A stretch of 42,070 nucleotides of DNA from Nocardiopsis potens DSM 45234 (GTDB lineage Bacteria > Actinomycetota > Actinomycetes > Streptosporangiales > Streptosporangiaceae), in the NCBI RefSeq assembly GCF_000341105.1, contig NZ_ANBB01000079.1, forward strand, positions 1 to 42,070, read 5' to 3'. Below, in pieces: positions 9,355 to 26,068 of the stretch; the stretch's first letter is position 1; every line of letters begins with the position of its first letter. A program made the translations under genes and the position numbers. The notes below the pieces were generated by a model. That model saw only the letters and a list, made by a program, of their open reading frames with translations. It had not been told where the DNA came from and ran no database searches.

Positions 9355-10815
9355 TCAGAACGGGTACCGCTCGATCTCGGCCTGCATGGTGACCCACTGG
9401 GTCTCGGTGAAGGCCTCGACGTTGGCGGTGGTCCCGCCGAACCGGGAGCCGGTGCCGGAGGCGCCGACCCCGCCGAAGGGGGCCACCGCCTCGTCGTCCA
9501 CGGTCTGGTCGTTGATGTGCACCAGGCCGGAGGGGATGCGGTCGGCCAGTTCCAGGCCGCGCATCGGGTTGCCGGTGAGGATGCCCAGGGAGAGCCCGTA
9601 CTCGCCCTGTGCGGCGAGCTCCGCGGCCTCGTCCAGGGTGTCGAACCGGACGATGGGGGCGACCGGGCCGAACACCTCCTCGGCGTAGGCGGGGGCGTCC
9701 GGGCCGACCCGGTCCAGCACGGTGGGCCGGTAGAACAGGCCGTCGTAGGTGCCGCCGGCGAGCACCCGCGCGCCCGCCTCGGCGCTCCGCCGCACCAGGT
9801 CGTGCACCCGGTCGCGCTGGCCCTCGTCGATCAGCGGGCCGAGCGCGCCCTCCTCCTTCTCCGGGTCGCCGACGTGCAGCGCCTCGGCCTTGGCGGCGAG
9901 CCGCTCCGCGTAGGCGTCGGCGACGGCGGAGTGCACCAGGTGCCGGCCGGTGGTCATGCAGATCTGGCCCTGGTGCAGGAAGGAGCCCCAGGCGCCGGCG
10001 GAGGCGGCCCGCTCCACGTCGGCGTCGTCCAGCACGATCAGCGGGGAGTTCCCGCCGAGCTCCAGGTGGGCGCGCTTGAGGTGGCGGCCGGCGGCCTCGC
10101 CGACCCGGCGCCCGGCCGCGGTGGAGCCGGTGAACGAGATGACCCGCACCCGCGGGTCGGTGACCAGCCGCTCCCCCGCCTGCGCGCCGCCGGGCAGCAC
10201 GTGCAGCACGCCCTCGGGCAGCCCGGCCTTGCGGAACACCTCGGCGATCACCGCGCCGCCGCAGACCGCGGTGCGCGGGTCCGGCTTGAGCACGACGGCG
10301 TTGCCCAGCGCCAGCGCCGGGGCGACCGAGCGCAGGCCGAGGATGAGCGGGAAGTTGAACGGGGCGATGACGCCGACCACGCCGACCGGCACCCTGCGGG
10401 CCAGGCTGAGCCGGGGGCGGGCGCTGCGCAGCACCTCGCCGGCGGGCTGGGAGGCGAGCGCGGCGCACTCGTAGGCCTCGGTGACGGCCAGGTGCGTCTC
10501 GAAGGCGGCCTTGCCGCGGGCCGAGCCGGCCTCGCGGACCAGCCAGCCGGCGATCTCCTCGGCGTGCTCCTCGAAGAGCGCCCCGGCGCGGCGGAGCACC
10601 GCCGCGCGCTCCTCGAAGGAGGCCGCGGCCCAGGCGCGCTGGGCGCCGGCGGCGGCCTCCGCCGACGCGGTCACGTCCTCGGCGGCGGCGCTGCCGATCC
10701 GGGCCAGTTCGGCGCCGGTGGCCGGGGCGGTCACCGGGGCGTCGCCGCCGCGGGCCGCGGTCCAGGCGCCGGTGAACACGTTGCCGTGCCATTCCTGCGA
10801 TTCGAGCAGGGGCAT
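9355..10815 (-). CDS. Benzaldehyde-dehydrogenase-like NAD(P)+-dependent aldehyde dehydrogenase
   Basis: A 486-residue ALDH with all catalytic features: APFNFP with Asn154, LELGGNSP with Glu252, and GQICMTTGRH with nucleophile Cys286. Also visible are the Rossmann loop FTGSTAAGRRVG (228-239) and the late EEVFGPVAPI motif. QICMTTGRH resembles the benzaldehyde/vanillin/salicylaldehyde dehydrogenase group more than the short-chain groups. It is the last gene of the minus-strand operon, 44 bases after the decarboxylase gene. The neighbour indicates that the aldehyde comes from decarboxylation of an aryl 2-oxo acid. With pobA in the same locus, oxidation of 4-hydroxybenzaldehyde to 4-hydroxybenzoate is my preferred role; benzaldehyde is the alternative. 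Start ATG at 10813-10815. Confidence 0.85.
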   Translation of the reverse strand: MPLLESQEWHGNVFTGAWTAARGGDAPVTAPATGAELARIGSAAAEDVTASAEAAAGAQRAWAAASFEERAAVLRRAGALFEEHAEEIAGWLVREAGSARGKAAFETHLAVTEAYECAALASQPAGEVLRSARPRLSLARRVPVGVVGVIAPFNFPLILGLRSVAPALALGNAVVLKPDPRTAVCGGAVIAEVFRKAGLPEGVLHVLPGGAQAGERLVTDPRVRVISFTGSTAAGRRVGEAAGRHLKRAHLELGGNSPLIVLDDADVERAASAGAWGSFLHQGQICMTTGRHLVHSAVADAYAERLAAKAEALHVGDPEKEEGALGPLIDEGQRDRVHDLVRRSAEAGARVLAGGTYDGLFYRPTVLDRVGPDAPAYAEEVFGPVAPIVRFDTLDEAAELAAQGEYGLSLGILTGNPMRGLELADRIPSGLVHINDQTVDDEAVAPFGGVGASGTGSRFGGTTANVEAFTETQWVTMQAEIERYPF

Positions 10816-10859
10816 GGGTGCCTCCTCAGGGTCGGTTCGGGGGATGCGCGCGGGCGCGG

Positions 10860-12491
10860 TCAGGGGCGGAAGGCGATGTCGGCGTTGGAGTCGACCGCGA
10901 CGTCGAGCAGGACCGGCTCGGTGCGGTCGCGCAGGGTGGGCACGATCTCGTCGAGGGCGGCGTCCAGTTCCTCGGCGGTGGCGGCGGTGCGCGCCGGGCA
11001 GCCCAGGCCGCGGGCGAGCGCGGCGAGCGACACCTGGGAGAAGTCGGGCCAGGGCGGCTTGCCGCCGCGGGCGTCGGCCAGGCGGTCCATGATGGCGTAG
11101 CGCTTGTTGGACAGCACCAGGAAGCAGACGCCGGCGCCGTACCGGGCGGCGCTCCACAGCGCCTGGACCTGGTAGAGCGAGGAGCCGTCGCCGACCACCG
11201 CGACCACCGGGCGGTCCGGGGCGGCCATCCGCACCCCGGTGGCGGCGGGCAGCGCGAAGCCCAGGCCGCCCATGGCGGCGGAGAGGAAGCCCATCGGGCG
11301 CCGGGCCGGGACGAGCCGGTGCAGGTCGGGCCGGCTGGAGGGGGTCTCCTCGACGAGCACGGTGTCCGGGTCGATGCGGGCGGCGAGCGCCGCCAGCACG
11401 TGCGCGGGGCGCAGCCCTTCGGGGCCGTAGACCTGCTGCTCGGCGGCGGGGGCCGGGGCGGCGGGGGCGGGCGCGGGGGTGCGCGGGCGGACCCGGTCGG
11501 CGAGCAGCCGCACGGCCGGGGCGACCGGCGCCAGCACGGCCAGTTCGACCGGGCTGCGGTGCGCCTCGGCGGGGTCGTCGGTGAGCACCGCGATGCGGGT
11601 GCCCGGCTCGGCCAGCGGCCCGTCGAAGTAGGGGTACTGGCGGAACACCGGGGCGCCCACGGCGAGCACCGCGTCGTAGGGGGCGAGGGCCTCGCGCAGC
11701 CGGGGGCGGTCCGCCGGGAGGAAGCCGGCGAACAGCGGGTGGTCCTGGGGGAACCCGGCGCGGGCGCCGAAGCTCTCCTGGTACACGGGGGTGCCGAGGC
11801 GCTCGGCGAGGGCGGTGAGCGCGGCCCACTCCTCCTCCCCGTCGGCGCCGGCGCCGACCACCAGGGCGGGCGCGGAGGCCTCGTCGAGGAGGCGGGCCAG
11901 GCCGTCGACGGCGGCCGGGTCGGCGGCGGCGGAGCGGACCACCCGCTCGGCGGCGGAGCGGGGCCTGCCGGTGTCGGCGGGCTCGCCCCAGTCGCCCTGG
12001 GGGACGATGACGATCGCGGGGCCCTTGCCCTGCTCGGCCTCGTGGTGGGCGCGGGCGATCGCGCCGGGGACCTCCTGGGGGACCGCGGGCTCCTCGGTCC
12101 ACACCGGGTAGTCGCCGGCCAGGTCGCGCAGCCGGCCGGTGAGGAACGGCTCCAGGGCGAGGTGGCGGCGGTCCTGCTGGCCGACGAGGACGACCAGCGG
12201 GGCGCGGTTGGCGCGGGCGGTGGCCAGGGCGCCGACCGCGTTGCCGAGCCCGGCGGTGGTGTGCAGCTGCACCAGTGCCGGGCGGCGGCGGGCCAGGGCC
12301 CACCCGGTGGCCATGCCCACCACCGAGCCCTCGTGCAGCGCGAGCACGAACTCGATGTCGCCGGGCAGGTCGGCGAGGAAGGCGACCTCGGTGGAGCCGG
12401 GGTTGGCGAAGACGGTGGTCAGCCCGTACTCGCGGAGCGTCTGCAGCGCCGCGTCCCGGACGGTGGGGGTCTGCTGCGACCGGTCGGTCAT
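10860..12491 (-). CDS. mdlC: Benzoylformate decarboxylase-like ThDP enzyme
   Basis: A 543-residue thiamine-diphosphate enzyme. Residues matching the Pseudomonas putida benzoylformate decarboxylase active site are Ser33 (NPGSTE), Glu54 (LALHEG, cofactor-activating) and His77 (QLHTTAGLGN). GAPVFRQYPY (279-288) aligns with GAPVFRYHQY, so the second active-site His (His281 in P. putida numbering) is Tyr286 here. The cofactor motif begins GDG 434-436 and ends SNKRY. The reaction would be an aryl 2-oxo acid to aldehyde plus CO2. Residues after SNKRY differ from the P. putida enzyme (AIMDRL versus GALRWF), which may mean a different substrate. The start overlaps the stop of the transporter ATPase gene by four bases. 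A Pro/Ala linker at 340-350 joins the central and cofactor domains. Confidence 0.8.
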   Translation of the reverse strand: MTDRSQQTPTVRDAALQTLREYGLTTVFANPGSTEVAFLADLPGDIEFVLALHEGSVVGMATGWALARRRPALVQLHTTAGLGNAVGALATARANRAPLVVLVGQQDRRHLALEPFLTGRLRDLAGDYPVWTEEPAVPQEVPGAIARAHHEAEQGKGPAIVIVPQGDWGEPADTGRPRSAAERVVRSAAADPAAVDGLARLLDEASAPALVVGAGADGEEEWAALTALAERLGTPVYQESFGARAGFPQDHPLFAGFLPADRPRLREALAPYDAVLAVGAPVFRQYPYFDGPLAEPGTRIAVLTDDPAEAHRSPVELAVLAPVAPAVRLLADRVRPRTPAPAPAAPAPAAEQQVYGPEGLRPAHVLAALAARIDPDTVLVEETPSSRPDLHRLVPARRPMGFLSAAMGGLGFALPAATGVRMAAPDRPVVAVVGDGSSLYQVQALWSAARYGAGVCFLVLSNKRYAIMDRLADARGGKPPWPDFSQVSLAALARGLGCPARTAATAEELDAALDEIVPTLRDRTEPVLLDVAVDSNADIAFRP

Positions 12492-13279
12492 CGGCCCGCA
12501 CCTCCGGCGGCCGCGCCCTGCTTGGCGTTCTGGATCTCGGCGTAGACCCGCGCGCGGAGTTCGGCGAAGCGCGGCTCGGAGCGGGTGGACAGCTGGTCGC
12601 GCTCGTCCCCCAGGTCGATCTCGACGTCGTCCTGGACCACGGTGGGCGAGGAGGAGAGCACCAGGACCCGCCCGCCGAGGTAGACCGCCTCGTCGATGTC
12701 GTGCGTCACGAACAGCACGGTCATGGAGAACCGCTTCCACAGCCCGCGGACCAGGTCCTCCAGGTCGGCGCGGGTCTGGGCGTCGACCGCGGCGAACGGC
12801 TCGTCCATCAGCAGCACGCTCGGCTCGTAGGCGATGGCGCGGGCGATGGCGACCCGCTGCTGCATGCCGCCGGAGAGCTCCCAGGGGTGGGCGGACGCGG
12901 CGTGGCCGAGCCCGACGGCCTCCAGCGATTCGGTGACCAGCTTCTTCCGGCGCGCCTTGGGCAGGCGCTTCTCCTTGAGCGGGAGTTCGACGTTGTCCTG
13001 CACGGTGAGCCAGGGGAAGAGGCTGCGCCCGTACTCCTGGAAGACCACGGCCATGCCCGGCGGCGGCCCGGTGACCTCGCGGCCGTCCACCCGGACCGTG
13101 CCCGAGGTGGGCCGCATCAGCCCGGAGATGCACTTGAGCAGGGTGGTCTTGCCGCATCCGGAGGGGCCGACCAGGCAGGCCAGCTCCCCGTCCGCGAGGG
13201 AGAAGGTGAGGTCGCGGACGGCCTCGACCTCGCGGTCGCCGCCGCGGTAGATCTTGCGCAGTCCGGTCACGTCGAGCAT
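12488..13279 (-). CDS. ABC transporter ATP-binding protein, TauB/SsuB (NitT/TauT) type
   Basis: A 263-residue ATPase. It has Walker A GPSGCGKT at 38-45, Q-loop VVFQEYGRSLFPW, signature LSGGMQQRVAIARA, Walker B VLLMDEPFAAVD and the H-loop in FVTHDIDEAVYL. FPWLTVQDNVELPL is characteristic of the nitrate/sulfonate/taurine branch. It energises the two permeases encoded upstream and is translationally coupled (ATGA) to the decarboxylase gene. That coupling strongly suggests the imported compound is the decarboxylase substrate or its precursor. A 161 bp gap with a hairpin and a G12 run separates it from the permease gene. Confidence 0.9.
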   Translation of the reverse strand: MLDVTGLRKIYRGGDREVEAVRDLTFSLADGELACLVGPSGCGKTTLLKCISGLMRPTSGTVRVDGREVTGPPPGMAVVFQEYGRSLFPWLTVQDNVELPLKEKRLPKARRKKLVTESLEAVGLGHAASAHPWELSGGMQQRVAIARAIAYEPSVLLMDEPFAAVDAQTRADLEDLVRGLWKRFSMTVLFVTHDIDEAVYLGGRVLVLSSSPTVVQDDVEIDLGDERDQLSTRSEPRFAELRARVYAEIQNAKQGAAAGGAGR

Positions 13280-13440: not shown

Positions 13441-14262
13441 TCATTCGCCTCTCGACGCCGCCCGCACGCCCCGGTACCAGCCCAGCGCCTTCCGCTCCAC
13501 CAGGGCGAAGAGCACGGACAGCAGGACGCCGAGCAGGCCGAGCAGGATGATCCCGCTCCACATCTCCGGGATGGCGAAGCTGCGCTGGAACTGGACGATG
13601 GCGAAGCCCAGGCCGCTGGAGCTGGCGAACATCTCGCTGATCACCATGAGGATGATCGCGAGGGAGAGCGCCTGGCGCAGGCCGGCCATGATCTGCGGGC
13701 TGGCCGAGCGGAGCACCAGGGTGGTGAGCCGGCGGCGGCCGCGGATCCGGTAGACGCGGCAGGTGTCGGCGAGGACCGGGTCGACCGCGCGGACGCCCTC
13801 GATGGTGTTGAGCAGCACCGGCCACACGCAGCCGGAGACGATGACGGCGGCGCGCATCGACGAGTCCAGGCCGATGAGCAGCATCAGCAGCGGCACCAGG
13901 ACCGGCGGCGGGATCGCGCGGAGGAACTCCAGGACCGGTTCGACCAGCGCGCGCAGCTTCGGCGACATGCCGAGCGGCAGGCCGAGGCCGACGCCGATCA
14001 CGGCGGCCAGGGCGTATCCGGTGAGCAGCAGGCCGACGCTGGGGAGCACGTCGACGGTGAACCGCTCGGCGGTCCACACCTCGCCGAAGGTCTGCACGAT
14101 CACGTCGGGGGTGGGCATGTAGTAGCTGCCGGAGGTCGCCGAGGCCCACCACCACACGGCGATGAGCACGGCGGGCAGCAGCAGCACCCGGAGCAGCGCC
14201 TTGGGCAGCCGGAGCAGCCGGCCGGCGGGGGCCGCGGTGCGGCCGGTGGTGGCCGCGGTCAT
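13441..14262 (-). CDS. ABC transporter permease, TauC/SsuC type (second)
   Basis: A 273-residue membrane protein with about six hydrophobic segments and the binding-protein-dependent permease signature. LPLGMSPKLRALVEPVLEFL and RAIPPPVLVPLLMLLIGL correspond to the conserved SsuC-family region, and the cytoplasmic loop follows as DPVLADTCRVYRIRGRRRL. I start at ATG 14260-14262 (MTAATTGRTAAPAG), which overlaps the previous gene's stop by four bases. Two different permeases side by side point to a heterodimeric channel, less usual for this family, which often uses a homodimer. Confidence 0.85.
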   Translation of the reverse strand: MTAATTGRTAAPAGRLLRLPKALLRVLLLPAVLIAVWWWASATSGSYYMPTPDVIVQTFGEVWTAERFTVDVLPSVGLLLTGYALAAVIGVGLGLPLGMSPKLRALVEPVLEFLRAIPPPVLVPLLMLLIGLDSSMRAAVIVSGCVWPVLLNTIEGVRAVDPVLADTCRVYRIRGRRRLTTLVLRSASPQIMAGLRQALSLAIILMVISEMFASSSGLGFAIVQFQRSFAIPEMWSGIILLGLLGVLLSVLFALVERKALGWYRGVRAASRGE

Positions 14263-15128
14263 ACGGCGGCCTCCCCTCGGACGGAGGGGTGCCAGCGCAG
14301 TACGCGCCGCTCCAGGGCGCGCACGCCGGTGTTGACCGCGACGCCCAGGATGCCGGTGGCGACGATGAGCGCGTAGACGACGTCCGGTGCGCCGCTCGAC
14401 TGGGCCACGGCGATCTCCTGTCCCAGGCCGGGGCTGCCGATGGTGAGCTGGGCGGTGATGGTCAGGATGAGCGCGACGGCCGCCCCCAGCCGCACCCCGG
14501 TGATCAGGTAGGGCAGGGCCGTCGGCCAGATGAGGTGGCGGATCCGCGCCCACCGGCCCAGCCCGTAGGCGCGGGCGGTCTGGTCGGCGACCGGGTCGAT
14601 GTCGGCGACGCCGTACAGCACCTGGACGTAGACCTGCCAGAACGCCGCGTAGATGACGAGCATCAGGGTGGAGGCGATGTCGGTGCCGTAGATCAGGATC
14701 GCCAGCGGGATCAGCGCGACCGAGGGGATGGGGCGGAGGAACTCCACGGTGGAGGCGGTGTAGGCGCGCAGCACCGGCACCGTTCCGATGGCGAAGCCGA
14801 GCAGGACGGCGGCGCCGACCGCGATGGCCAGGCCCAGGCCCCAGGCGGCGAGGGTGTCGCCGACGGCGGTCCAGAACTTCGCCGTCGCGGTGCGCTCGGC
14901 CAGGGTGGCCAGCACCTCCGAGGCGGGCGGGAGGTAGTCGGCGGAGACCAGGGGGGTCCGCGGGACGATCTCCCAGATCAGCAGGAAGGCGAGCACGCCG
15001 CCGGTGCCCAGCAGCGCGTCGCCGCCGGGGAGCCGGCGGCGGGGCCGCGGAGGGGACTTCTTCGCGGGCGGGGGCGGTGCGGCCGGGGCCGCGGAGGCGG
15101 CCCCGGCGGGTGCCGAGGGGGCGGTCAT
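14259..15128 (-). CDS. ABC transporter permease, TauC/SsuC type (first)
   Basis: A 289-residue membrane protein. The N-terminus (1-35) is Ala/Pro/Lys-rich and cytoplasmic. The first hydrophobic segment, GGVLAFLLIWEIVP, begins near residue 43. FLRPIPSVALIPLAILIYGT and the loop DPVADQTARAYGLGRWARIR are typical of nitrate/sulfonate-type permeases. Its start overlaps the stop of the binding-protein gene (ATGA) and its own stop overlaps the next permease start. The four transporter genes are thus tightly ordered: binding protein, permease, permease, ATPase. Confidence 0.85.
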   Translation of the reverse strand: MTAPSAPAGAASAAPAAPPPPAKKSPPRPRRRLPGGDALLGTGGVLAFLLIWEIVPRTPLVSADYLPPASEVLATLAERTATAKFWTAVGDTLAAWGLGLAIAVGAAVLLGFAIGTVPVLRAYTASTVEFLRPIPSVALIPLAILIYGTDIASTLMLVIYAAFWQVYVQVLYGVADIDPVADQTARAYGLGRWARIRHLIWPTALPYLITGVRLGAAVALILTITAQLTIGSPGLGQEIAVAQSSGAPDVVYALIVATGILGVAVNTGVRALERRVLRWHPSVRGEAAV

Positions 15129-16090
15129 GCCCGTCCCGGGAAGAGCTCGGAGACCTGCGGGTCCTCCTTGATGAGGCCGTCTTCCTTCATCATGTCCCCG
15201 ATGGTCTGCACGGAGTCGATGCTGCTGTCCGGCGGGAAGGCGGGCAGCCGGATGTCCTCGATGAGCTGCTGGTCCATCTCGGTGTAGGTGCCGAGGATGC
15301 GGCGGACCTCCTCCGGGTTGGACTCGGCGTAGGAGAGCGAGTGGTTCATCGCGGTCACGAACTTCTCGACCAGCTCGGGGTCCTTCTTCGCGGTCTCCTC
15401 GGTGGTGAAGTAGACCGCGACGGTGAGCTGCTCGTGGGCGTCGACGAAGTTGGAGGCGATCTCGGTGGCGCCGCCGTCCAGCGCGGTGGTGAGGAAGGGC
15501 TCGACCACCCAGGCGGCGTCGACCTCCTTCTTCTCCAGCGCGGCCGGCATGTCCGGGAAGGGCAGCTCGGTGAACTGGATGTTGCTCGGGTCGCCGCCGT
15601 CGGTGCGGACCGAGTTGCGGACCGTGGTGTCGCCGATGTTCTTCAGGTTGTTGACCGCGACCTTGGCGCCGGCGAGGTCCTTGGCGCTCTTGATGTCGCT
15701 GCCCTCGGGGACGACGATGGCACCGAAGTCCTCGCCCTCCTTGCCGGTGGAGGAGACTCCGTTGGCGACGGTCTGCACCGGCAGCCCGGAGTCGCGGGCC
15801 ACCAGCAGCGAGGTGACGTTGCCGAAGGCGAAGTCGAAATCGCCGCTGACCACACCGGGGACGGCCTGCGCGCCGCCGCTGGTGTTCTTCACTTCGACCT
15901 CGAGGCCCTGGGTCTCGAAGTACCCCTGGTCGATGCCGAGGTGGAGGGGGGCGACGTCGACGATGGGGATGGCGCCGACGGTGATCTTCGTCAGGCCGCC
16001 CTCGGTGGTCTCCGTGTCGCTGCCGCCGCAGGCGCTGGCTCCGACGGCCAGCAGAACGGCACAGGCCCCGGTGAGGAGTCTGCGAGGCAT
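15125..16090 (-). CDS. Substrate-binding lipoprotein, NitT/TauT-type (aromatic acid candidate)
   Basis: A 321-residue lipoprotein. MPRRLLTGACAVLLAVGASA precedes Cys21 in the lipobox. The mature protein opens KITVGAIPIVDVAPLHLGID, then QGYFETQGLEVEV, the classic NMT1/TauA/SsuA pattern. I chose ATG 16088-16090 rather than the longer frame because AAGGAGACC lies directly upstream and the signal peptide begins there. This family usually binds taurine, sulfonates, nitrate, thiamine precursors or aromatic acids. The operon context (aryl 2-oxo acid decarboxylase, aldehyde dehydrogenase) suggests an aromatic 2-oxo or 2-hydroxy acid. It is the first gene of the minus-strand operon, behind a promoter covered by two putative IclR sites. 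Confidence 0.85.
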   Translation of the reverse strand: MPRRLLTGACAVLLAVGASACGGSDTETTEGGLTKITVGAIPIVDVAPLHLGIDQGYFETQGLEVEVKNTSGGAQAVPGVVSGDFDFAFGNVTSLLVARDSGLPVQTVANGVSSTGKEGEDFGAIVVPEGSDIKSAKDLAGAKVAVNNLKNIGDTTVRNSVRTDGGDPSNIQFTELPFPDMPAALEKKEVDAAWVVEPFLTTALDGGATEIASNFVDAHEQLTVAVYFTTEETAKKDPELVEKFVTAMNHSLSYAESNPEEVRRILGTYTEMDQQLIEDIRLPAFPPDSSIDSVQTIGDMMKEDGLIKEDPQVSELFPGRA

Positions 16091-16182: not shown

Positions 16183-16197
16183 GTTCGTTTTCCGAAC
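16183..16197. promoter_or_regulatory. Putative IclR operator A1
   Basis: GTTCG-TTTTC-CGAAC, a perfect 5+5 inverted repeat with a 5 bp spacer. It lies just downstream of the predicted start of transcription of the minus-strand transporter operon. The same half sites recur at 17422. Confidence 0.65.
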
Positions 16198-16201
16198 GAG
16201 A

Positions 16202-16216
16202 GTTCAAAAAGCGAAC
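16202..16216. promoter_or_regulatory. Putative IclR operator A2
   Basis: GTTCA-AAAAG-CGAAC, one mismatch from the perfect palindrome, 19 bp from A1 start to start. It overlaps the predicted -10 hexamer of the minus-strand promoter, so binding there should repress. Confidence 0.6.
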
Positions 16217-16418: not shown

Positions 16419-16433
16419 GTTCGGTATGAGAAC
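16419..16433. promoter_or_regulatory. Putative IclR operator C (autoregulatory)
   Basis: GTTCG-GTATG-AGAAC, one mismatch from the palindrome, 25 bp before the regulator's ATG. Its TATGAG could be part of the regulator's own -10 element. Unlike the other two sites in this regulatory system it has no partner 19 bp away. Confidence 0.5.
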
Positions 16434-17402: not shown

Positions 17403-17417
17403 GTTCGCAGTAAGAAC
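17403..17417. promoter_or_regulatory. Putative IclR operator B1
   Basis: GTTCG-CAGTA-AGAAC, one mismatch from the palindrome. It lies directly downstream of the predicted pca transcription start. Confidence 0.55.
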
Positions 17418-17421
17418 AATG

Positions 17422-17436
17422 GTTCGCTATCCGAAC
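17422..17436. promoter_or_regulatory. Putative IclR operator B2
   Basis: GTTCG-CTATC-CGAAC, a perfect inverted repeat, 19 bp start to start from B1. This is the same spacing as the A1/A2 pair. Confidence 0.65.
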
Positions 17437-18303: not shown

Positions 18304-19103
18304 CGTCCGCGGCCGCGGAGGCGCCCGCCTGCACCTCCGACGAGATGATGACCGTCACCGCGTCCCGCGCGCTGCGCGACGGCTCCGCCTGCTTCGTCGG
18401 GATCGGCCTGCCCAGCACCGCGGCGAACCTGGCGCGCCGCACGCACGCGCCCGGCCTGTGGATGATCTACGAGTCGGGCACCCTGGGCGCCACCCCCTCG
18501 GTGCTGCCGCTCTCCATCGGCGACGGCGAGCTCGCCGAGACCGCCGACACCGTGGTCTCGGTCCCCGAGGTGTTCAACTACTGGCTGCAGCCCGGCCGGA
18601 TCGACACCGGCTTCCTCGGCGCCGCGCAGATCGACCGGTACGGCAACATCAACACCACCGTCATCGGCGACTACGGCGCACCGAAGGTCCGGCTGCCCGG
18701 GGCCGGCGGCGCCCCGGAGATCGCCGCGAACTGCCGCGAGGTGGTGGTGATCGTCCGGCAGAGCCGGCGGGCCTTCGTCGAGTCGGTCGACTTCACCACC
18801 TCGGTCGGGCACGGCTCCGGCCCCGGCGACCGGGAGCGGCTCGGGCTGCGCGGCGCCGGCCCCACCCGGGTCATCACCGACCTGGGCGTGCTGGAGCCCG
18901 ACCCCCGCACCCGCGAGCTGACCCTGACCAGCGTGCACCCCGGCACCACCGTGCAGCAGGTCCGCGAGGCCACCGGCTGGGACCTGGCCGTCTCCGCCGA
19001 CCTGCGCACCACGCCCGCCCCCGACCCGCACGAGCTGGCCGTGCTGCGCTCGCTCACCGGCCGCACGCCCCCCACCCACGACGGAAGGCAGGGAACCCGA
19101 TGA
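18300..19103 (+). CDS. pcaJ: 3-oxoadipate CoA-transferase subunit B
   Basis: A 267-residue beta subunit. FVGIGLPSTAANLARRTHAP (32-51) and MIYESGTLGA carry the catalytic Glu58, which forms the enzyme-CoA thioester. NYWLQPGRIDTGFLGAAQID and RYGNINTTVIGDY are typical of the subunit. It forms a heteromer with PcaI; ATGA overlap at both ends of the gene (with pcaI and with pcaF) supports coupled translation. The family also includes glutaconate and other CoA transferases, but the pca setting makes beta-ketoadipate the evident substrate. Confidence 0.9.
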   Translation: MTSAAAEAPACTSDEMMTVTASRALRDGSACFVGIGLPSTAANLARRTHAPGLWMIYESGTLGATPSVLPLSIGDGELAETADTVVSVPEVFNYWLQPGRIDTGFLGAAQIDRYGNINTTVIGDYGAPKVRLPGAGGAPEIAANCREVVVIVRQSRRAFVESVDFTTSVGHGSGPGDRERLGLRGAGPTRVITDLGVLEPDPRTRELTLTSVHPGTTVQQVREATGWDLAVSADLRTTPAPDPHELAVLRSLTGRTPPTHDGRQGTR

Positions 19104-20278
19104 CCGGCGACGCGTACGTCATCGACGCGGTCCGCACCCCCTTCGGCAAGTACGGCGGCGCGCTGTCCGGGACCCGCCCCGACGACCTCGCGGCGCACGT
19201 GGTCCGGGCCCTGGTGGACCGCTCCCCCGGCCTCGACCCGGCCGCGATCGACGACGTCTACTTCGGCGACGCCAACGGCGCCGGGGAGGACAACCGCAAC
19301 GTCGCCCGGATGGCGGCGCTGCTCGCCGGGCTCCCGGTGACGGTGCCCGGCGCGACGCTCAACCGGCTCTGCGGCTCCGGGCTGGAGGCCGCCATCGCGG
19401 CCAACCGGGCGGTGGCCGTCGGCGACGCCTCGCTGGTGCTGGCCGGCGGCGTGGAGTCGATGAGCCGCGCCCCGTGGGTGCTGCCCAAGCCCGCCAAGGG
19501 CTTCCCCGCCGGCCACGAGACGCTGCACTCCACCACCCTGGGCTGGCGGATGGTCAACCCGCGGATGGACCCCGCCTGGACCGTGTCACTGGGCGAGAGC
19601 ACCGAGCAGGTCGCCGAGGAGTTCGGCATCGGCCGGGCCGAGCAGGACGCGTTCGCGCTGCGCAGCCACGCCAACGCCGCCGCGGCCTGGGAGAAGGGCG
19701 TCTTCGCCGACGAGGTGGTCCAGGTCCCCGGCGCCGAACTGGAGCGGGACGAGAGCATCCGGGAGACCTCCGCGGAAAAGCTCGCCGCCCTCAAGCCGGC
19801 GTTCCGCCCCGAGGGCACCATCACCGCCGGCAACGCCTCGCCGCTCAACGACGGCGCCGCCGCCCTGCTGATCGGCGACGGCGACGCGGCCCGGGCGGCC
19901 GGGCGCGAGCCGCTGGCCCGGATCGTCTCCCGCGGTGTCGCCGCGGTGGAGCCGCACCGGTTCGGCGTCGGCCCGGTGCAGGCCGCCGAGATCGCGCTGC
20001 GCCGGGCCGGCATCGGCTGGGGCGACCTGGCCGCGGTCGAGCTGAACGAGGCCTTCGCCGCCCAGTCCCTGGCCTGCCTGCGCAGCTGGGAGGGGCTGGA
20101 CCCGGAGATCGTCAACCCCGACGGCGGGGCCATCGCCATCGGCCACCCGCTCGGCGCCTCCGGGGCCCGGGTGCTCGGCACCCTCGCCCACGGGCTGCGC
20201 CGGCGCGGCGGCGGCTGGGGACTGGCCGCGATCTGCATCGGCGTGGGCCAGGGCCTGGCCGTCGTACTGCACGCTTGA
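19100..20278 (+). CDS. pcaF: Beta-ketoadipyl-CoA thiolase
   Basis: A 392-residue thiolase. Nucleophile Cys91 is in LNRLCGSGLEA, the His is in GHPLGASGAR and the second catalytic Cys is in CIGVGQGLAV near the C-terminus. It splits beta-ketoadipyl-CoA with CoA into succinyl-CoA and acetyl-CoA, the last step of the pathway. Length matches the family. The ATG overlaps the end of pcaJ by four bases. Having pcaI-J-F before pcaH-G-B places the last steps first in the transcript. Confidence 0.9.
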   Translation: MTGDAYVIDAVRTPFGKYGGALSGTRPDDLAAHVVRALVDRSPGLDPAAIDDVYFGDANGAGEDNRNVARMAALLAGLPVTVPGATLNRLCGSGLEAAIAANRAVAVGDASLVLAGGVESMSRAPWVLPKPAKGFPAGHETLHSTTLGWRMVNPRMDPAWTVSLGESTEQVAEEFGIGRAEQDAFALRSHANAAAAWEKGVFADEVVQVPGAELERDESIRETSAEKLAALKPAFRPEGTITAGNASPLNDGAAALLIGDGDAARAAGREPLARIVSRGVAAVEPHRFGVGPVQAAEIALRRAGIGWGDLAAVELNEAFAAQSLACLRSWEGLDPEIVNPDGGAIAIGHPLGASGARVLGTLAHGLRRRGGGWGLAAICIGVGQGLAVVLHA

Positions 20279-20301: not shown

Positions 20302-21066
20302 ATGAGCGAACCCCTCACCCCGGAGGCGCCCGCGGCGCCCCCGCCCGTCCTCGGCTACCTGCGCGACCGCGAGGTGCACCCGCCGCTGGACTACCCCGGC
20401 TACCGGAGCACCGCGCTGCGCCACCCGCGGCGCCGGCTGAAGGTCCTCCCGCACCTGCTCACCGAGGTCACCGGGCCACTGCTGGGCGAGGACCGGATCG
20501 GCGAGCTGGACAACGACCTCACCCGCCAGCACGACGGCGAGCCGCAGGGCCAGCGGATCATCGTGCACGGGCAGGTCCGGGACGGCGACGGCGCACCGGT
20601 CCCGCACACCCTGATCGAGATCTGGCAGGCCAACGCCGGGGGCCGGTACCGGCACACCGGCGACAACTGGCCCAGCCCGCTGGACCCCAACTTCACCGGG
20701 GTGGGCCGGACCCTCACCGACGACCAGGGGCGGTACCGGTTCACCACGATCCGACCCGGCGCCTACCCGTGGCGGAACCACGACAACGCCTGGCGGCCCG
20801 CGCACATCCACTTCTCGCTGTTCGGGCGGGCCTTCACCCAGCGGCTGGTCACCCAGATGTACTTCCCGGGCGACCCGCTGTTCTTCCAGGACCCGATGTG
20901 GAACTCCATCCCCGACCCGGACGCCCGGGAGCGGCTGGTCGCCCGGTTCGACTACGGGTCGACCGAGGAGGAGTGGGCACTGGCCTACGAGTGGGACATC
21001 GTGCTGCGCGGCCGCGAGTCCACGGTCTTCGAGGACGAGATCGCGCTGGAGGATGACGACGAATGA
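20302..21066 (+). CDS. pcaH: Protocatechuate 3,4-dioxygenase beta subunit
   Basis: A 254-residue subunit that carries the non-haem Fe(III). Its four ligands are recognisable: Tyr116 (GGRYRHTGDN), Tyr155 (GAYPWRNHDN), His168 and His170 (RPAHIHFSLFG). With PcaG it opens the protocatechuate ring between the hydroxyls to 3-carboxy-cis,cis-muconate. AAGGA lies upstream of ATG 20302. The C-terminus is very acidic (EDEIALEDDDE) and overlaps the pcaG start by four bases. Confidence 0.95.
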   Translation: MSEPLTPEAPAAPPPVLGYLRDREVHPPLDYPGYRSTALRHPRRRLKVLPHLLTEVTGPLLGEDRIGELDNDLTRQHDGEPQGQRIIVHGQVRDGDGAPVPHTLIEIWQANAGGRYRHTGDNWPSPLDPNFTGVGRTLTDDQGRYRFTTIRPGAYPWRNHDNAWRPAHIHFSLFGRAFTQRLVTQMYFPGDPLFFQDPMWNSIPDPDARERLVARFDYGSTEEEWALAYEWDIVLRGRESTVFEDEIALEDDDE

Positions 21067-21623
21067 CGGCGCCGACCACCCCCTCCCAGACCGTGGGGCC
21101 CTACCTGCACATCGGGCTGCCCTGGCCGGACGGCCCGTTCGCCGCGGCCGAGGGCTCCCCCGGCGGCGTGTGGATCCGCGGGGTGCTCACCGACGGCGCG
21201 GGCGCGCCGATCGGCGACGGCCTGGTGGAGACCTGGCAGGCCGACCCGGACGGCCGGTTCGACCACCCCGACGACCCGCGCGGCGCGGTGGCCCGGCCGG
21301 GCTTCCGCGGGTTCGGCCGCTGCCCGACCGACGCCGAGGGCCGCTTCGCCGTGTACACCCTCAAGCCCGGGCCGGTCCCCTCCCACCTGGGCCTGCAGGC
21401 CCCGCACATCGACGTGTCGGTGTTCGCCCGGGGGATGCTGAACCGCACGGTGACCCGGATCTACTTCCCCGACGAGCCGGAGGCCAACGCCGCCGACCCG
21501 GTGCTCGGCTCGATCGCCTCGGAGGCCGCGCGCGCCACCCTGGTCGCCGAGCCCGCCGAGGACGGCTACCGGTTCGACATCCGGCTGCAGGGCGAGGGCG
21601 AGACGGTGTTCTTCAACATCTGA
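21063..21623 (+). CDS. pcaG: Protocatechuate 3,4-dioxygenase alpha subunit
   Basis: A 186-residue subunit that shares the fold of PcaH but lacks the iron ligands, as is normal. SQTVGPYLHIGLPWPDG at the start, WQADPDGRFDHP, APHIDVSVFARGMLNR (containing the substrate-contacting Arg) and the TVFFNI ending are typical. ATGA overlap with pcaH gives the expected equimolar production. Confidence 0.95.
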   Translation: MTAPTTPSQTVGPYLHIGLPWPDGPFAAAEGSPGGVWIRGVLTDGAGAPIGDGLVETWQADPDGRFDHPDDPRGAVARPGFRGFGRCPTDAEGRFAVYTLKPGPVPSHLGLQAPHIDVSVFARGMLNRTVTRIYFPDEPEANAADPVLGSIASEAARATLVAEPAEDGYRFDIRLQGEGETVFFNI

Positions 21624-21630: not shown

Positions 21631-21699
21631 CCCCGGTGGTCTCGGCGCCGCCGCCCCGTCAGCGCGGCTCGGCAGGGCCGCGGCGCCGAGACCACCGCC
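21631..21699. repeat. Full copy of dispersed palindromic element (copy d), between pcaG and pcaB
   Basis: Perfect 17 bp arms GGTGGTCTCGGCGCCGC (21635-21651) and its complement (21680-21696), with a 28-base loop. Flanks, arm length and loop composition parallel the element at 24289-24350. In RNA it would form a strong hairpin inside the pca transcript; no T-tract follows. It is 12 bases after the pcaG stop and could also act as a partial terminator. Confidence 0.75.
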
Positions 21700-21744
21700 G
21701 GGGGCGGGCGGGAACCAGCAGCAGCGAGGAGGAGCGAGAGCGGC

Positions 21745-23085
21745 ATGAGCGGCCTGTTCTCAGGGATGTTCGGCCGCGGCCCGGCGGCCGCCGAGACCGG
21801 CGGCGAGGCGTGGCTGCGCGCCATGCTCGACGCCGAGGCCGCACTGGCCCGGGCGCTGGCGCGCACCGGGCTGGCCGCGCCGGAGCACGCCGAGGCGATC
21901 ACCGCCGCCTGCCGGGACCGCCGGTTCGACGCCGAGGAGCTGGGCCGCGCCGCGGCCGCCTCGGCCAACCCGGTGGTTCCGCTGGTCAAAGCGGTGACCG
22001 CGGCGGTCGGCGGGGACGCGGCCCGGCACGTGCACCAGGGCGCCACCAGCCAGGACATCATGGACACCGCGGCGATGCTGGTGGCCCGCCGGGCCGGCGC
22101 GGCGGCCGCCGCCGAGGCCCGCGCGGCCGCCGACGGGCTGGCCGAACTGGCCGAGCGGCACCGCGGCTCGGTGATGGCCGGGCGGACCCTGCTGCAACAG
22201 GCGCTGCCCACCACCTTCGGCCTGGTCGCCGCGGGCTGGATGGCCGCCCTGGACGACGCCGCGGCGGCGGTGCTCGCCGAGACCGGCGAGCGGGCCAGGG
22301 CCCAGTTCGGCGGGGCCGCGGGCACCCTGGCCTCGCTCGGCGACCGCGGCCCCGCGGTCGCCGCCGCCTTCGCCGACGAGCTCGGCCTGGCCCGGCCGCT
22401 GCCGCCGTGGCACACCGACCGCGGGCCGGTGGTCTCCGCCGCGGGCGCGCTGGCCCGGCTGAGCGGCGCGGCGGGCAAGGCCGCGGGCGACATCGCGCTG
22501 CTCGCCCAGACCGAGGTGGCCGAGGTGGCGGAGGCCGGCGGCGCGGGTGTGGGCGGGTCGTCCACCATGCCGCACAAGCGCAACCCGGTGGCGGCCGTCT
22601 CCGCCGTCGCCTGCGCCGAGCAGGCCCCGGGGCTGGCCGCGACGCTGCTCGCCGCGCAGATCCACCAGCCGCACCAGCGCGCGGCGGGCGCCTGGCAGGC
22701 CGAGTGGGAGCCGCTGGACCGGCTGCTGCGCAGCACCGGTTCGGCGGTGTCCTGGCTCGCCGAGTCGGTGCGCCGGCTCCGCCCGGACCCGGAGCGGATG
22801 CGCCGCAACCTGGAGCTGACCGGCGGATTCCCGCTGGCCGAGCGGGTCGCCACCGACCTGGCGCCGCAGCTGGGCCGGCTGCCCGCGCACGAGCTGGTGC
22901 AGCGGGCGTGCGCCGAGGCCGCCGCCGGCGACGGCGACCTGGCCGCGGCGCTCACCGCGCACCTGGACGGCCTGCGCACGGGAGAGGAGATCGCCGCCCT
23001 CCTCGACCCGGCCGACTACCTGGGGGCGGCCTCCGCCCTCATCGACGCCGCCCTGGACCGGCACCGGACGATCGGCCCCCGGTGA
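21745..23085 (+). CDS. pcaB: 3-carboxy-cis,cis-muconate cycloisomerase
   Basis: A 446-residue member of the fumarase/aspartase superfamily. VHQGATSQDIMDTAAML (about 93-109) and the superfamily signature GSSTMPHKRNPV (about 271-282) are intact. It lactonises 3-carboxymuconate to gamma-carboxymuconolactone. AGGAGGAGCGAGAG lies upstream of ATG 21745. The 121 bp gap to pcaG contains a palindromic repeat, so coupling to pcaHG is looser than among the upstream genes. Confidence 0.93.
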   Translation: MSGLFSGMFGRGPAAAETGGEAWLRAMLDAEAALARALARTGLAAPEHAEAITAACRDRRFDAEELGRAAAASANPVVPLVKAVTAAVGGDAARHVHQGATSQDIMDTAAMLVARRAGAAAAAEARAAADGLAELAERHRGSVMAGRTLLQQALPTTFGLVAAGWMAALDDAAAAVLAETGERARAQFGGAAGTLASLGDRGPAVAAAFADELGLARPLPPWHTDRGPVVSAAGALARLSGAAGKAAGDIALLAQTEVAEVAEAGGAGVGGSSTMPHKRNPVAAVSAVACAEQAPGLAATLLAAQIHQPHQRAAGAWQAEWEPLDRLLRSTGSAVSWLAESVRRLRPDPERMRRNLELTGGFPLAERVATDLAPQLGRLPAHELVQRACAEAAAGDGDLAAALTAHLDGLRTGEEIAALLDPADYLGAASALIDAALDRHRTIGPR

Positions 23086-23472: not shown

Positions 23473-24258
23473 ATGACCACCGAGATCGACCCGGTCGACG
23501 TGCACGCGGTCGTGGACGGACCGGCGGGCGCGCCCACCGTCGTGCTGGCCGGGTCGCTGGGCAGCACCCTGGAGATGTGGGAGCCGCAGGTCGGCCCGCT
23601 GCTGGCCGCCGGGCTGCGGGTGGTCCGCTACGACCACCGCGGGCACGGCGGCTCCCCGGTGCCGCCCGGCCCCTACCGGATCGCCGACCTGGGCGCCGAC
23701 CTGATCCGGCTGCTCGACCGGATCGGCGCCGAGCGGGCCTCGGTCGCCGGGCTGTCGCTGGGCGGGATGGTCGGCATGTGGGCGGCCGCGGTGCACCCGG
23801 AGCGGATCGACCGGCTGGCGCTGCTGTGCACCTCGGCGCTGCTCGGGCCGCCCGAGGGGTGGACGTCGCGGGCCGAGGCGGTGCGCGCCCGGGGCGCCGG
23901 GGCGGTCGCAGAGGCGGTGGTGGACCGCTGGTTCACCCCCGCCTACGCGGAGCGGAACCCGGAGACCGCGGCGCGGATGCGCGCCATGGTCGCCGCCGCC
24001 CCCGCCGAGGGGTACGCCGGCTGCTGCGAGGCGATCGCCGCCATGGACCTCCGCCCGGAGCTGCCCGGGATCGGCGCGCCGACCCTGGTCCTGTCCGGCG
24101 GGGAGGACCCGGCCACCCCGGCGGAGCACGCGCGCACCATCGCCGGCCTGGTCCCCGGCGCCCGGCTGCAGGTGCTGGACGGCGGGGCGCACCTGGCCTC
24201 CTGGGAGTGCGCCGACCAGGTGAACCCGCTGCTGACCGAGCACCTGACCCGGCGCTGA
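23473..24258 (+). CDS. pcaD: 3-oxoadipate enol-lactonase
   Basis: A 261-residue alpha/beta-hydrolase. The triad is visible as Ser95 (GLSLGGM), Asp212 (SGGEDPATP) and His240 (DGGAHLASWE). The oxyanion-side motif is LAGSLGSTLEMW (25-36), followed by YDHRGHGGS. It hydrolyses beta-ketoadipate enol-lactone to beta-ketoadipate. Many actinomycetes have pcaD fused to pcaC as pcaL; here the genes are separate, with a stop and a 174 bp repeat-bearing gap. Ribosome binding site GGAAGGAA directly precedes the ATG. Confidence 0.92.
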   Translation: MTTEIDPVDVHAVVDGPAGAPTVVLAGSLGSTLEMWEPQVGPLLAAGLRVVRYDHRGHGGSPVPPGPYRIADLGADLIRLLDRIGAERASVAGLSLGGMVGMWAAAVHPERIDRLALLCTSALLGPPEGWTSRAEAVRARGAGAVAEAVVDRWFTPAYAERNPETAARMRAMVAAAPAEGYAGCCEAIAAMDLRPELPGIGAPTLVLSGGEDPATPAEHARTIAGLVPGARLQVLDGGAHLASWECADQVNPLLTEHLTRR

Positions 24259-24288
24259 ACAGGGCGTCCCCGCCGCCTCCCCTCCCCC

Positions 24289-24350
24289 GATGGTCTTGAC
24301 GTCGCGGCCCTGTCGACGCGCGTTCATAGGGCGGCAACGCCAAGATCATC
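24289..24350. repeat. Full copy of dispersed palindromic element (copy e), between pcaD and pcaC
   Basis: The left arm GATGGTCTTGACGTCGC (24289-24305) pairs with the right arm GGCAACGCCAAGATCATC (about 24333-24350) with a few mismatches across a short loop. The arms match those at the window ends (1-51, 981-1010, 41771-41789). It lies in the gap that separates pcaD and pcaC. Confidence 0.8.
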
Positions 24351-24432
24351 GCCCCGGGCCGGGCGGCCGGAACCCTGATCCCGGCTTCCCCGCCCGCCCC
24401 TCTCCGACCACCCGACCGCTGATGGAGGACCG

Positions 24433-24843
24433 ATGACCGCCGACCGACCGCACGCCCCCGACTCCGCCGACCGGGACCGCCACGAGGCGGGCATGAAGGT
24501 CCGCCGGGAGGTGCTCGGCGACGCCCACGTCGACCGGGCGACCGCGGCCGCCACCGACTTCACCGCCCCCTTCCAGGACTTCATCACCCGCTACGCCTGG
24601 GGCGAGATCTGGACCGGCGGCACCCTGGACCGGCGCACCCGCAGCTGCATGGTGCTGACCGCGATGGTGGCCCAGGGCCACTGGGACGAGCTGGCCATGC
24701 ACGTCCGCGCGGCCAAGCGCAACGGCCTGTCCGACGCGGAGATCCGCGAGGTGTTCCTCCAGGCCGCGGTCTACTGCGGCGTGCCCGCGGCGAACAAGGC
24801 GTTCGCCGTCGCCCGCGGCGTCCTCGCCGAAGAGACCGACTGA
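24433..24843 (+). CDS. pcaC: 4-carboxymuconolactone decarboxylase
   Basis: A 136-residue protein of the CMD/AhpD-like fold. GMKVRREVLGDAHVDRA near the N-terminus and RTRSCMVLTAMVAQGHWDEL (about 63-82) are the signature segments. HVRAAKRNGLSDAEIREVFL, QAAVYCGVPAANKAF complete the domain. It converts gamma-carboxymuconolactone to beta-ketoadipate enol-lactone. It is a stand-alone protein of normal length, not the C-terminal part of a PcaL fusion. pobA follows after 43 bp. Confidence 0.95.
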   Translation: MTADRPHAPDSADRDRHEAGMKVRREVLGDAHVDRATAAATDFTAPFQDFITRYAWGEIWTGGTLDRRTRSCMVLTAMVAQGHWDELAMHVRAAKRNGLSDAEIREVFLQAAVYCGVPAANKAFAVARGVLAEETD

Positions 24844-24886
24844 CCCCCGCCCACCCCTCCCCTGCCCCACGAGACCGAGGCTTCCC

Positions 24887-26068
24887 ATGCGCACCACCGT
24901 CGGCATCATCGGCGCCGGCCCGGCCGGCCTGTTCCTCTCCCACCTGCTGCACCTGCGCGGCATCGACTCCGTCGTGCTGGAGCGGCGCGACCGCGGCCAC
25001 TGCGAGGGCCGGCAGCGCGCCGGGGTCGTCGAGCACGGGCCCGCGGCCGCGCTGCGCGCCGCGGGCGTCGGCGACCGGCTGGACCGCGAGGGGTTCGTGC
25101 ACGAGGGGATCGAGCTGCGCTTCGGCGGGCGCGGGCACCGCATCGACTTCCGCGAGCTCACCGGCCGCGACGTGGTGCTCTACGCCCAGACCGAGATCGT
25201 CAAGGACCTCATCGCCCGGCGGCTGGCGGACGGCGGCGACCTGCGCTTCGAGGCGGAGGCGGCCGCGATCGAGGACATCGCGGAGGAGGGCGGCGCCCGG
25301 CCGCGGATCCGGTACACCCGGGGCGGCCGCGAGGAGGTGCTGGAGTGCGAGCACGTGGTGGCCTGCGACGGGTTCCACGGCATCGGGCGCGCCGCGCTGC
25401 CCGCGGACCGGGTGCGCACCTTCGCCAAGACCTACCCGTTCAGCTGGCTGGGCATCCTGGCCGACGCCGCGCCCGCCTGCGACGAGCTGGTCTACGCCCG
25501 GCACGACCGCGGTTTCGCGCTGTACAGCATGCGCTCGGACAAGGTCAGCCGGCTCTACCTGCAGGTGCCCAACGGGACCGACCCGGCGGACTGGACGCAC
25601 GAGCGGATCTGGGCGGAGCTGGACGCCCGGCTGGCCCTGGACGGCGCGGACGCGCGCCCCAACCGCGGCCCGATCACCGACGTGGGCGTCACCCCGATGC
25701 GCAGCTTCGTCACCGAGCCGATGCAGCACGGCCGGCTGCTGCTGGCCGGCGACGCCGCGCACATCGTCCCGCCGACCGGGGCCAAGGGCCTGAACCTGGC
25801 ACTGCACGACGTCATCCTGCTCGCCGAGGCGCTGCACTCCTGGCACGGCGGCGACCGGAGCCTCCTGGACGGCTACTCCGAGACGGCGCTGCGCCGGGTG
25901 TGGCGGGCCGAGCACTTCTCCTACTGGATGACGACGCTGCTCCACCCCGACCCGGAGGCCTCCCCGTTCGAGGCCCGGCTGCAGCTCTCGCACCTGGAGC
26001 ACATCGCCGCGTCCCGGGCGGCGGCCGGCTCGCTCGCCGAGAACTACACCGGCATCCCCGGGCTGTGA
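24887..26068 (+). CDS. pobA: 4-hydroxybenzoate 3-monooxygenase
   Basis: A 393-residue flavoprotein. FAD-binding IGAGPAGLFLSHLLHLRG (8-25), the middle motif CDGFHGIGR and GDAAHIVPPTGAKGLNLALH are all present. Residues that contact 4-hydroxybenzoate in the Pseudomonas enzyme (Tyr201, Ser212, Arg214, Tyr222) match Tyr203, Ser214, Arg216 and Tyr224 here, within YARHDRGFALYSMRS and SRLYLQV. It hydroxylates 4-hydroxybenzoate to protocatechuate using NAD(P)H and O2. Its place as the last pca-operon gene links the operon to 4-hydroxybenzoate, the predicted product of the 9.3-16.1 kb operon. Confidence 0.95.
   Translation: MRTTVGIIGAGPAGLFLSHLLHLRGIDSVVLERRDRGHCEGRQRAGVVEHGPAAALRAAGVGDRLDREGFVHEGIELRFGGRGHRIDFRELTGRDVVLYAQTEIVKDLIARRLADGGDLRFEAEAAAIEDIAEEGGARPRIRYTRGGREEVLECEHVVACDGFHGIGRAALPADRVRTFAKTYPFSWLGILADAAPACDELVYARHDRGFALYSMRSDKVSRLYLQVPNGTDPADWTHERIWAELDARLALDGADARPNRGPITDVGVTPMRSFVTEPMQHGRLLLAGDAAHIVPPTGAKGLNLALHDVILLAEALHSWHGGDRSLLDGYSETALRRVWRAEHFSYWMTTLLHPDPEASPFEARLQLSHLEHIAASRAAAGSLAENYTGIPGL

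Follow-up and report, generated by a model that had tools for sequence, protein, structure and literature searches.

The window described here, a 42,070-nucleotide stretch of DNA corresponding to contig C79 of a 6.91 Mb actinomycete genome (99.4% complete), contains two divergent sets of genes for the predicted import and degradation of an aromatic acid. On the minus strand, read from 16090 to 9355, are found in succession genes for a substrate-binding protein (SBP), two permeases and an ATPase of an ABC importer, a thiamine diphosphate (ThDP)-dependent enzyme resembling benzoylformate decarboxylase (BFD), and an aldehyde dehydrogenase; on the plus strand, read from 16459 to 26068, are pcaR, pcaI, pcaJ, pcaF, pcaH, pcaG, pcaB, pcaD, pcaC and pobA. 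Overlaps of 4 bp at three minus-strand junctions (SBP/permease, permease/permease and ATPase/decarboxylase) are consistent with a single operon. An initial annotation had described BFD-like and benzaldehyde-dehydrogenase-like enzymes in one operon with a four-part importer, facing a divergent operon with pobA and all of the pca genes, and each of these genes was indeed located, pcaI and pcaJ by their position and by CoA_trans homology.

Both sides of the locus carry the same putative regulatory signal. A 34-bp tandem palindrome, GTTC-N7-GAAC-N4-GTTC-N7-GAAC, in which the unit starts are 19 bp apart, was matched perfectly in the promoter region of the importer-decarboxylase operon (16183..16216) and before pcaI (17403..17436), and those two promoters are the only places in the 6.9 Mb genome at which it occurs without a mismatch; no place was found with one mismatch, and a single place with two. 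Palindromes of the form GTTCGNNNNNCGAAC occur within the window only at 16183 (between the SBP gene and pcaR) and at 17422 (upstream of pcaI), against an expectation of 0.02, and GTTCGN5CGAAC is present at 6 places genome-wide, compared with 0 for the same pattern read backwards. A weaker, single operator-like site precedes pcaR at 16419..16433.

The repeated unit of these tandem sites is the published PcaR site. The PcaR motif of Corynebacterium glutamicum is GTTCGC-N3-GCGAAC, and tandem sites with centres 18-22 nt apart have been reported in 94 IclR groups (PMC8222616); the Pseudomonas putida PcaR site is GTTCGATAATCGCAC, and that regulator responds to beta-ketoadipate and related acids (PMC12455658), while in Rhodococcus opacus PD630 PcaR represses the pca genes (PMC9582017). 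The corresponding regulator of the window (16459..17277, plus strand) is of the IclR type, scores 337.2 bits against the TIGR02431 cut-off of 284.75, belongs to the PcaR/PcaU/PobR subfamily, and matches P. putida PcaR (8eju) at 213 bits. Judged from these sites, PcaR would bind, at each of the two promoters, a tandem pair of GTTCG-N5-CGAAC-like palindromes set 19 bp from one another; given that the same operators stand at both, the importer-decarboxylase operon would be switched together with pcaIJF.

The persistence of this arrangement was examined across 76 loci, of which 75 are actinobacterial with at least 53% decarboxylase identity and one is remote (L084, 27%); they extend no more than 10 kb from the decarboxylase match, some are cut by contig ends, and, being related, they are not independent draws. 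An importer ATPase (at least 60% identity) lies just upstream in 35 of the 76, a dehydrogenase (at least 60%) downstream in 34, and PcaR (at least 60%) within 34, with ATPase and PcaR occurring together in 31. In the 300 bp preceding the first gene, 35 of 72 loci have a site that deviates from the pattern at no more than one position (28 of the 34 with PcaR, and 7 of the 38 without it), compared to means of 0.77 (maximum 3) and 1.49 (maximum 7) in single-base and dinucleotide shuffles, respectively. Of the 34 PcaR-bearing loci, 32 have such a site somewhere in the stretch from PcaR to the first gene, which exceeds 1 kb in seven of the 32. When spacings of 15-40 bp between paired sites were tallied, 19 bp was found 26 times, 26 bp three times, and the other 24 spacings never; the 26-bp spacings fall between the two tandem pairs of three Herbidospora loci. 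Most Nonomuraea loci with pcaR instead possess a single variant site, GTGCGCA-N2-GCGAAC, between pcaR and the first gene, and two have none. (Clustering of open reading frames, which was noisy at 76% GC, was excluded from all counts.)

A whole-genome search for the tandem pattern was subsequently conducted in 35 genomes drawn from the 76 loci, chosen in part for sites already seen, such that the result is a descriptive tally and not a random sample. With at most one mismatch the pattern was found at 43 places in 28 genomes, and its reverse at 2. Forty of the 43 are near the start of an outward-pointing pcaI, pcaB, pcaR, SBP, decarboxylase, permease or pobA gene, namely 37 of the 40 sites that were typed, each no further than 450 bp from it, and three identical-letter repeats (twice in genome G300, once in G337), which stand at importer, pcaI and importer, respectively. 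The three unexplained sites (L177:3985, L178:731 and L183:4046) have no close, outward-pointing match to the pca, importer or decarboxylase proteins of the window.

Several of these genomes illustrate that the genes can separate on the chromosome and retain the operator. In Nocardiopsis sp. NRRL B-16309, a pca operon (L165), an importer operon (L166) and an SBP-decarboxylase operon (L184) lie apart from one another, with a tandem site at each. In Streptomonospora nanhaiensis, a permease-permease-ATPase-aldehyde dehydrogenase operon and pobA run in opposite directions from a shared interval that holds two tandem sites (L170), the pca genes lie elsewhere with a tandem site of their own (L169), and an SBP-decarboxylase pair occupies a third place with a single site (L016); the position of that operon opposite pobA links the dehydrogenase with 4-hydroxybenzoate. 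In two Amycolatopsis genomes and in Saccharothrix the decarboxylase sits in another neighbourhood, comprising either an IclR-like gene and (where scanned) a major facilitator superfamily (MFS) transporter, or a flavin adenine dinucleotide (FAD) monooxygenase and an MFS transporter, and the sole tandem site found in each genome is at pcaI.

The ThDP-dependent enzyme itself (10860..12491, minus strand; 543 residues) contains three TPP_enzyme domains in a profile search and matches BFDs in the PDB at up to 336 bits; its nearest named relatives are from Nocardiopsis. A 1048-residue open frame at 9355-12501 was considered as a decarboxylase-dehydrogenase fusion and rejected, the dehydrogenase frame merely running open through the decarboxylase gene, which has its own stop at 10860. 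Residues were compared in 62 of the 75 decarboxylase loci (L009-L083) and in 23 of 25 loci matching the BFD model, partial matches being dropped, at positions (280, 281, 377 and 464) that we take to follow the numbering of P. putida BFD. The equivalents of Ser26, Glu47 and His70 are S33, E54 and H77, as expected of a BFD, and are conserved in 59, 62 and 61 of the 62 clade rows. The His281 of P. putida is not kept, its place being taken by Tyr286 (following Gln285), and among the BFD-model rows Tyr is found at 280 in 23 of 23 and at 281 also in 19 of 23. Gln280 and Pro377 are invariant in the 62 clade rows, as is Leu464 in the 59 that have a residue there, whereas the 23 BFD-model rows carry Tyr280 and Phe464, with Pro377 in only 3. 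In a tree of 58 rows (27 from the clade, namely the window and 26 others; 23 BFD-model proteins; four PDB chains; four outgroup), the clade occupies one side of a single branch (100/100, stem 1.14), apart from the four PDB decarboxylases and the 23 BFD-model proteins, with an unsure nearest sister group (84/37).

That separation, together with the invariant Gln280 and Pro377 and the presence of Leu464 wherever the residue exists, would also fit an enzyme that performs some other reaction on a lignin-type compound, for instance one that splits a carbon-carbon bond of an aryl ketol and so releases a hydroxybenzaldehyde for the dehydrogenase. The best PDB match, 4mpp, is likewise a chain carrying Y281, P377 and I460, and looks from its sequence like an engineered P. 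putida protein. Such a role is nevertheless considered quite improbable, given the near-complete retention of the three residues equivalent to Ser26, Glu47 and His70 and the report that the BFD of strain Pf-5 was inactive on an aryl C3 lignin fragment (PMC7760541). The altered residues weaken the statement that the window enzyme is a BFD, and not the statement that it works like one; its substrate is suggested by homology and context.

The decarboxylase is followed by the aldehyde dehydrogenase gene (9355..10815, minus strand; 486 residues; PF00171, 488 bits), the product of which is predicted to be a hydroxybenzaldehyde dehydrogenase: its best PDB matches are 4-hydroxybenzaldehyde dehydrogenases, at 359.7 bits, and it reaches no NCBIfam cut-off among the 25 models listed. 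It is preceded, on the same strand, by the genes for the importer ATPase (12488..13279; PF00005, 118.9 bits; taurine/nitrate type, below the NCBIfam cut-offs listed), permease 2 (13441..14262; PF00528), permease 1 (14259..15128; PF00528) and the SBP (15125..16090; PF09084 NMT1, 120.7 bits).

On the plus strand, protocatechuate 3,4-dioxygenase is encoded by pcaH (beta subunit, 20302..21066; TIGR02422, 357.8 bits versus a cut-off of 296.4) and pcaG (alpha subunit, 21063..21623; TIGR02423, 207.1 versus 126.25), 3-carboxymuconate cycloisomerase by pcaB (21745..23085; TIGR02426, 353.8 versus 355.75, just short), 3-oxoadipate enol-lactonase by pcaD (23473..24258; TIGR02427, 284.6 versus 255.85), 4-carboxymuconolactone decarboxylase by pcaC (24433..24843; TIGR02425, 172.5 versus 155.7), and 3-oxoadipyl-CoA thiolase by pcaF (19100..20278; TIGR02430, 469.9 versus 597, short of the cut-off). 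The 4-hydroxybenzoate 3-monooxygenase PobA (24887..26068) passes the NF006091 (PRK08243) model at 558.2 versus 351 and matches 7on9 at 428.8 bits, and falls below the stricter TIGR02360 (468.8 versus 538.7). The subunits in the pcaI position (17464..18303; PF01144 in a longer frame) and the pcaJ position (18300..19103) score far below their models, at 39.4 bits versus 128.5 and 42.7 bits (TIGR02428) versus 243.55, so that the coenzyme A (CoA)-transferase step rests on position and CoA_trans homology. The enzyme encoded at 17464-19103 looks like a glutaconate CoA-transferase (PcaI matching 1poi, glutaconate CoA-transferase A, at 99 bits in the comparison with the PDB) and not like the usual PcaIJ/SCOT type.

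Whether benzoate itself could serve as the product of such an operon depends on the remainder of the genome. A catechol or benzoate branch was sought genome-wide with Pfam and NCBIfam models and was not found, extending to the full genome the initial annotation's observation for the locus. Ring_hydroxyl_A, the BenA family, gave 0 matches in this genome (4 of 14 control genomes were positive), and BoxB gave none (1 of 14 controls matched, and none exceeded the cut-off). Its three intradiol dioxygenases are PcaH, PcaG and a 220-residue protein on contig C56 (L086:1489-2151) that has a secretion-type leader by eye and lies below all NCBIfam cut-offs listed; against the actinobacterial model for catechol 1,2-dioxygenase it scores 70.7 bits versus a cut-off of 404.4, and no intradiol enzyme of the genome reaches a catechol-dioxygenase cut-off. 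An unsubstituted benzoate product would therefore be a dead end by the BenA, catechol and BoxB routes. In a survey of the genomes of 50 of the 76 loci, 44 gave some match to the BenA model, mostly weak, and seven (those of L013, L018, L019, L021, L027, L030 and L067) exceeded its curated cut-off: none of the 32 whose locus includes PcaR and 7 of the remaining 18, the completeness of these genomes not being given.

An ordinary mandelate-type route, in which unsubstituted benzoylformate is converted to benzoate, would draw on the fact that BFD is the nearest named family and on the seven BenA-positive relatives. It is nonetheless regarded as very improbable, in view of the lack of Ring_hydroxyl_A, BoxB and above-threshold catechol dioxygenase matches in this genome, the absence of above-threshold BenA from all 32 relatives whose locus includes PcaR, and the PcaR type of the operator. 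The locus was also found to be devoid of a mandelate dehydrogenase, as had been claimed, and the single full-length FMN_dh match in the genome, on contig C27, exceeds no NCBIfam cut-off listed.

On this evidence the locus is probably a single, PcaR-controlled unit for the import of a para-hydroxylated arylglyoxylate and its degradation through the Pca pathway. The four-part ABC importer would take up that compound, most likely 4-hydroxybenzoylformate; the ThDP enzyme would convert it to 4-hydroxybenzaldehyde and the aldehyde dehydrogenase would oxidize the latter to 4-hydroxybenzoate; PobA would then generate protocatechuate, which the Pca enzymes would carry to succinyl-CoA and acetyl-CoA. 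Homology and context give good support to the general course of this route, which leads from arylglyoxylate through aryl aldehyde, 4-hydroxybenzoate and protocatechuate into central metabolism. The earlier proposal of para-hydroxylated substrates gains from the shared operators, from the missing benzoate branch and from the pobA arrangement of S. nanhaiensis; the candidate ring substitutions are 4-hydroxy, 3,4-dihydroxy and 4-hydroxy-3-methoxy.

A substrate with a second ring oxygen is a less likely choice but deserves some weight: either 3,4-dihydroxybenzoylformate, or 4-hydroxy-3-methoxybenzoylformate followed by demethylation, would enter at protocatechuate, leaving PobA to act on free 4-hydroxybenzoate. 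PcaR-type operators and linkage to pca fit such a compound equally, replacement of Phe464 by Leu could widen the ring pocket, and the pathway of R. jostii RHA1 also accepts 4-hydroxy-3-methoxybenzoylformate (PMC9811514). It is countered by the inclusion of pobA in the gene set and by its divergent orientation relative to the dehydrogenase operon of S. nanhaiensis; furthermore, the methoxy form requires a demethylase, and none was noticed in the window, no search being aimed at VanA itself. The Ring_hydroxyl_A model may not detect that enzyme.

The initial annotation had additionally suggested that the system might scavenge or turn over 4-hydroxyphenylglyoxylate formed on the way to 4-hydroxyphenylglycine. 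Amycolatopsis and Nonomuraea, which are among the relatives, are genera with glycopeptide producers. This genome, however, contains no full-length match to HPPD or hydroxymandelate synthase (a single partial match scores 38 bits), and in two Amycolatopsis genomes the decarboxylase lies beside a gene 36% identical to PcaR (and an MFS transporter where scanned), with the tandem site at pcaI. The idea is not supported by these searches and is considered highly improbable.

The chemistry of the preferred route is already known from R. jostii RHA1. Its decarboxylase turns 4-hydroxybenzoylformate and the 3-methoxy form into 4-hydroxybenzaldehyde and vanillin, and aryl-C2 lignin fragments are the published source of such substrates in that strain (PMC9811514); the gene is clustered with vdh and a flavin mononucleotide (FMN)-dependent glycolate oxidase (PMC9811514, PMC10795516). 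The window resembles that cluster in joining a ThDP decarboxylase to an aromatic aldehyde dehydrogenase for a lignin-type aryl-C2 acid, and differs from it in three respects: the cluster lacks an FMN oxidase, it includes a four-part ABC importer, and it has PcaR-type operators in common with pca. The separation of the window's clade was established relative to four PDB enzymes, the RHA1 sequence not being among those compared.

A second parallel is the bzfRABCD cluster of Pseudomonas sp. LLC-1 and Pf-5, which likewise unites a decarboxylase, a dehydrogenase and a transporter without mandelate enzymes, but has a LysR regulator, an MFS transporter and a porin, and yields benzoate; the Pf-5 enzyme acts on both benzoylformate and 4-hydroxybenzoylformate (PMC7760541). 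The IclR regulator and the GTTCG-N5-CGAAC type of site are shared with PcaR/PcaU regulons of the beta-ketoadipate pathway (PMC8222616, PMC12455658). In Streptomyces lividans, a block comprising BFD, benzaldehyde dehydrogenase and an aromatic acid transporter is co-induced with the pca genes and pobA, with log2 increases on protocatechuate and 4-hydroxybenzoate of 5.35 and 6.61, 6.69 and 8.36, and 5.66 and 7.30, respectively (PMC10731712). Unlike the window's importer, that transporter is described as an aromatic acid:H+ symporter; this independent result favours the view that blocks of this kind are regulated jointly with pca in an actinomycete. A BFD relative from Streptomyces (L123/L185) that might have stood in for the S. 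lividans block was dropped on account of its different neighbourhood.

What look new are the enzyme branch, the importer and the shared switch. In the literature searched, 'benzoylformate decarboxylase' and 'Nocardiopsis' were not found in the same paper, nor were 'benzoylformate' and 'PcaR'. It is close to an even question, falling slightly on the side of doubt, whether an arylglyoxylate regulon has gone unrecognised in actinomycetes of the Nocardiopsis and Nonomuraea families, one that combines a hydroxyl-specific decarboxylase clade (Gln-Tyr, Pro377, Leu464), its own ABC importer, direct PcaR control and an operator kept on dispersal. In this soil actinomycete the genes, lying side by side and apparently governed by a single switch, would serve a plant-type aromatic keto acid. 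This arrangement would bring an aryl-C2 acid, likely a lignin fragment, under the actinomycete PcaR regulon from its uptake to its first cleavage; it would furnish a 34-bp operator with which regulon members can be predicted in other genomes; and it would name a decarboxylase clade that has no characterised member among the enzymes compared here and that is open to direct assay.

Several observations weigh against the reading of the locus as one para-hydroxyarylglyoxylate unit. Regarding the enzyme, the decarboxylase scores 479.3 bits against NF005485 (benzoylformate decarboxylase), below the curated cut-off of 493; it has Gln-Tyr where 6qsi has Tyr-His (position 281), in addition to Pro377 and Leu464; its clade forms a long branch of its own; and no reported activity was found for any clade member. 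Regarding transport, the best PDB match of the SBP scores just 49 bits and the importer is of the sulfonate/taurine/nitrate type, under every NCBIfam cut-off listed, so that the ligand is not fixed by homology; an arylglyoxylate-forming oxidase was not found adjoining the operon. Regarding conservation, pcaI (at least 60% identity) was seen in only 9 of the 76 loci within their reach of at most 10 kb, and 8 importer-bearing loci with room for a dehydrogenase have none adjacent. The tandem site was missing from 7 of the 35 genomes (Nonomuraea G314, G316, G318 and G319, Microtetraspora niveoalba G346, Pseudonocardia eucalypti G317 and S. tagetis G330), and the loci of those four Nonomuraea genomes carry single variant sites only. 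Loci L013 and L067 combine the operator with BenA, and a strict rule that the operator occurs only in genomes without BenA was rejected on that basis. Finally, the S. lividans block is likened to the window by gene content and induction, its BFD not being placed in the clade tree.

Additional decarboxylase neighbourhoods were recorded. In S. tagetis the neighbours include a distant intradiol match together with a FAD monooxygenase and a member of the iron alcohol dehydrogenase family, a combination that would suit a hydroxyquinol-type route. At L056 and L057 the gene has both FAD monooxygenase genes and distant matches to intradiol dioxygenases in its vicinity, and at L056 also a gene of the iron alcohol dehydrogenase family, possibly representing a hydroxyquinol lower pathway. 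Among 150 genomes of the genus of G161, probably Streptomyces, six have a decarboxylase of the window type at 65-69% identity and 8 more have one at 42-46%. Within that genus, L196 presents a decarboxylase (66%) and a dehydrogenase (66%) beside PcaR-like (50%) and pcaF-like (70%) genes, and at L201 and L202 another type of decarboxylase (41-42% identity) stands beside an SBP-permease-permease-ATPase importer of the same kind as that of the window (permease identity 40-42%), such that the pairing of decarboxylase and importer recurs.

Elsewhere in the window, a sugar-type ABC transporter recognised by eye at approximately 7.3-9.3 kb was judged to be unrelated to the locus. A large FAD-oxidase and 4Fe-4S/CCG protein of the D-lactate or 2-hydroxy-acid dehydrogenase type is encoded at 38217-41588; oxidation of a D-2-hydroxy acid could in principle be its role, and a tie to the operon was not seen. 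Next to pobA, at 26375-30028, are a BetI-like TetR regulator (81 bits, under the cut-off), a BKACE beta-keto acid cleavage enzyme (PF05853, 322.6 bits), a dehydrogenase-like frame (by eye; the scanned frame gave no family) and a 4HBT_2 thioesterase, which in combination look like a carnitine degradation operon.

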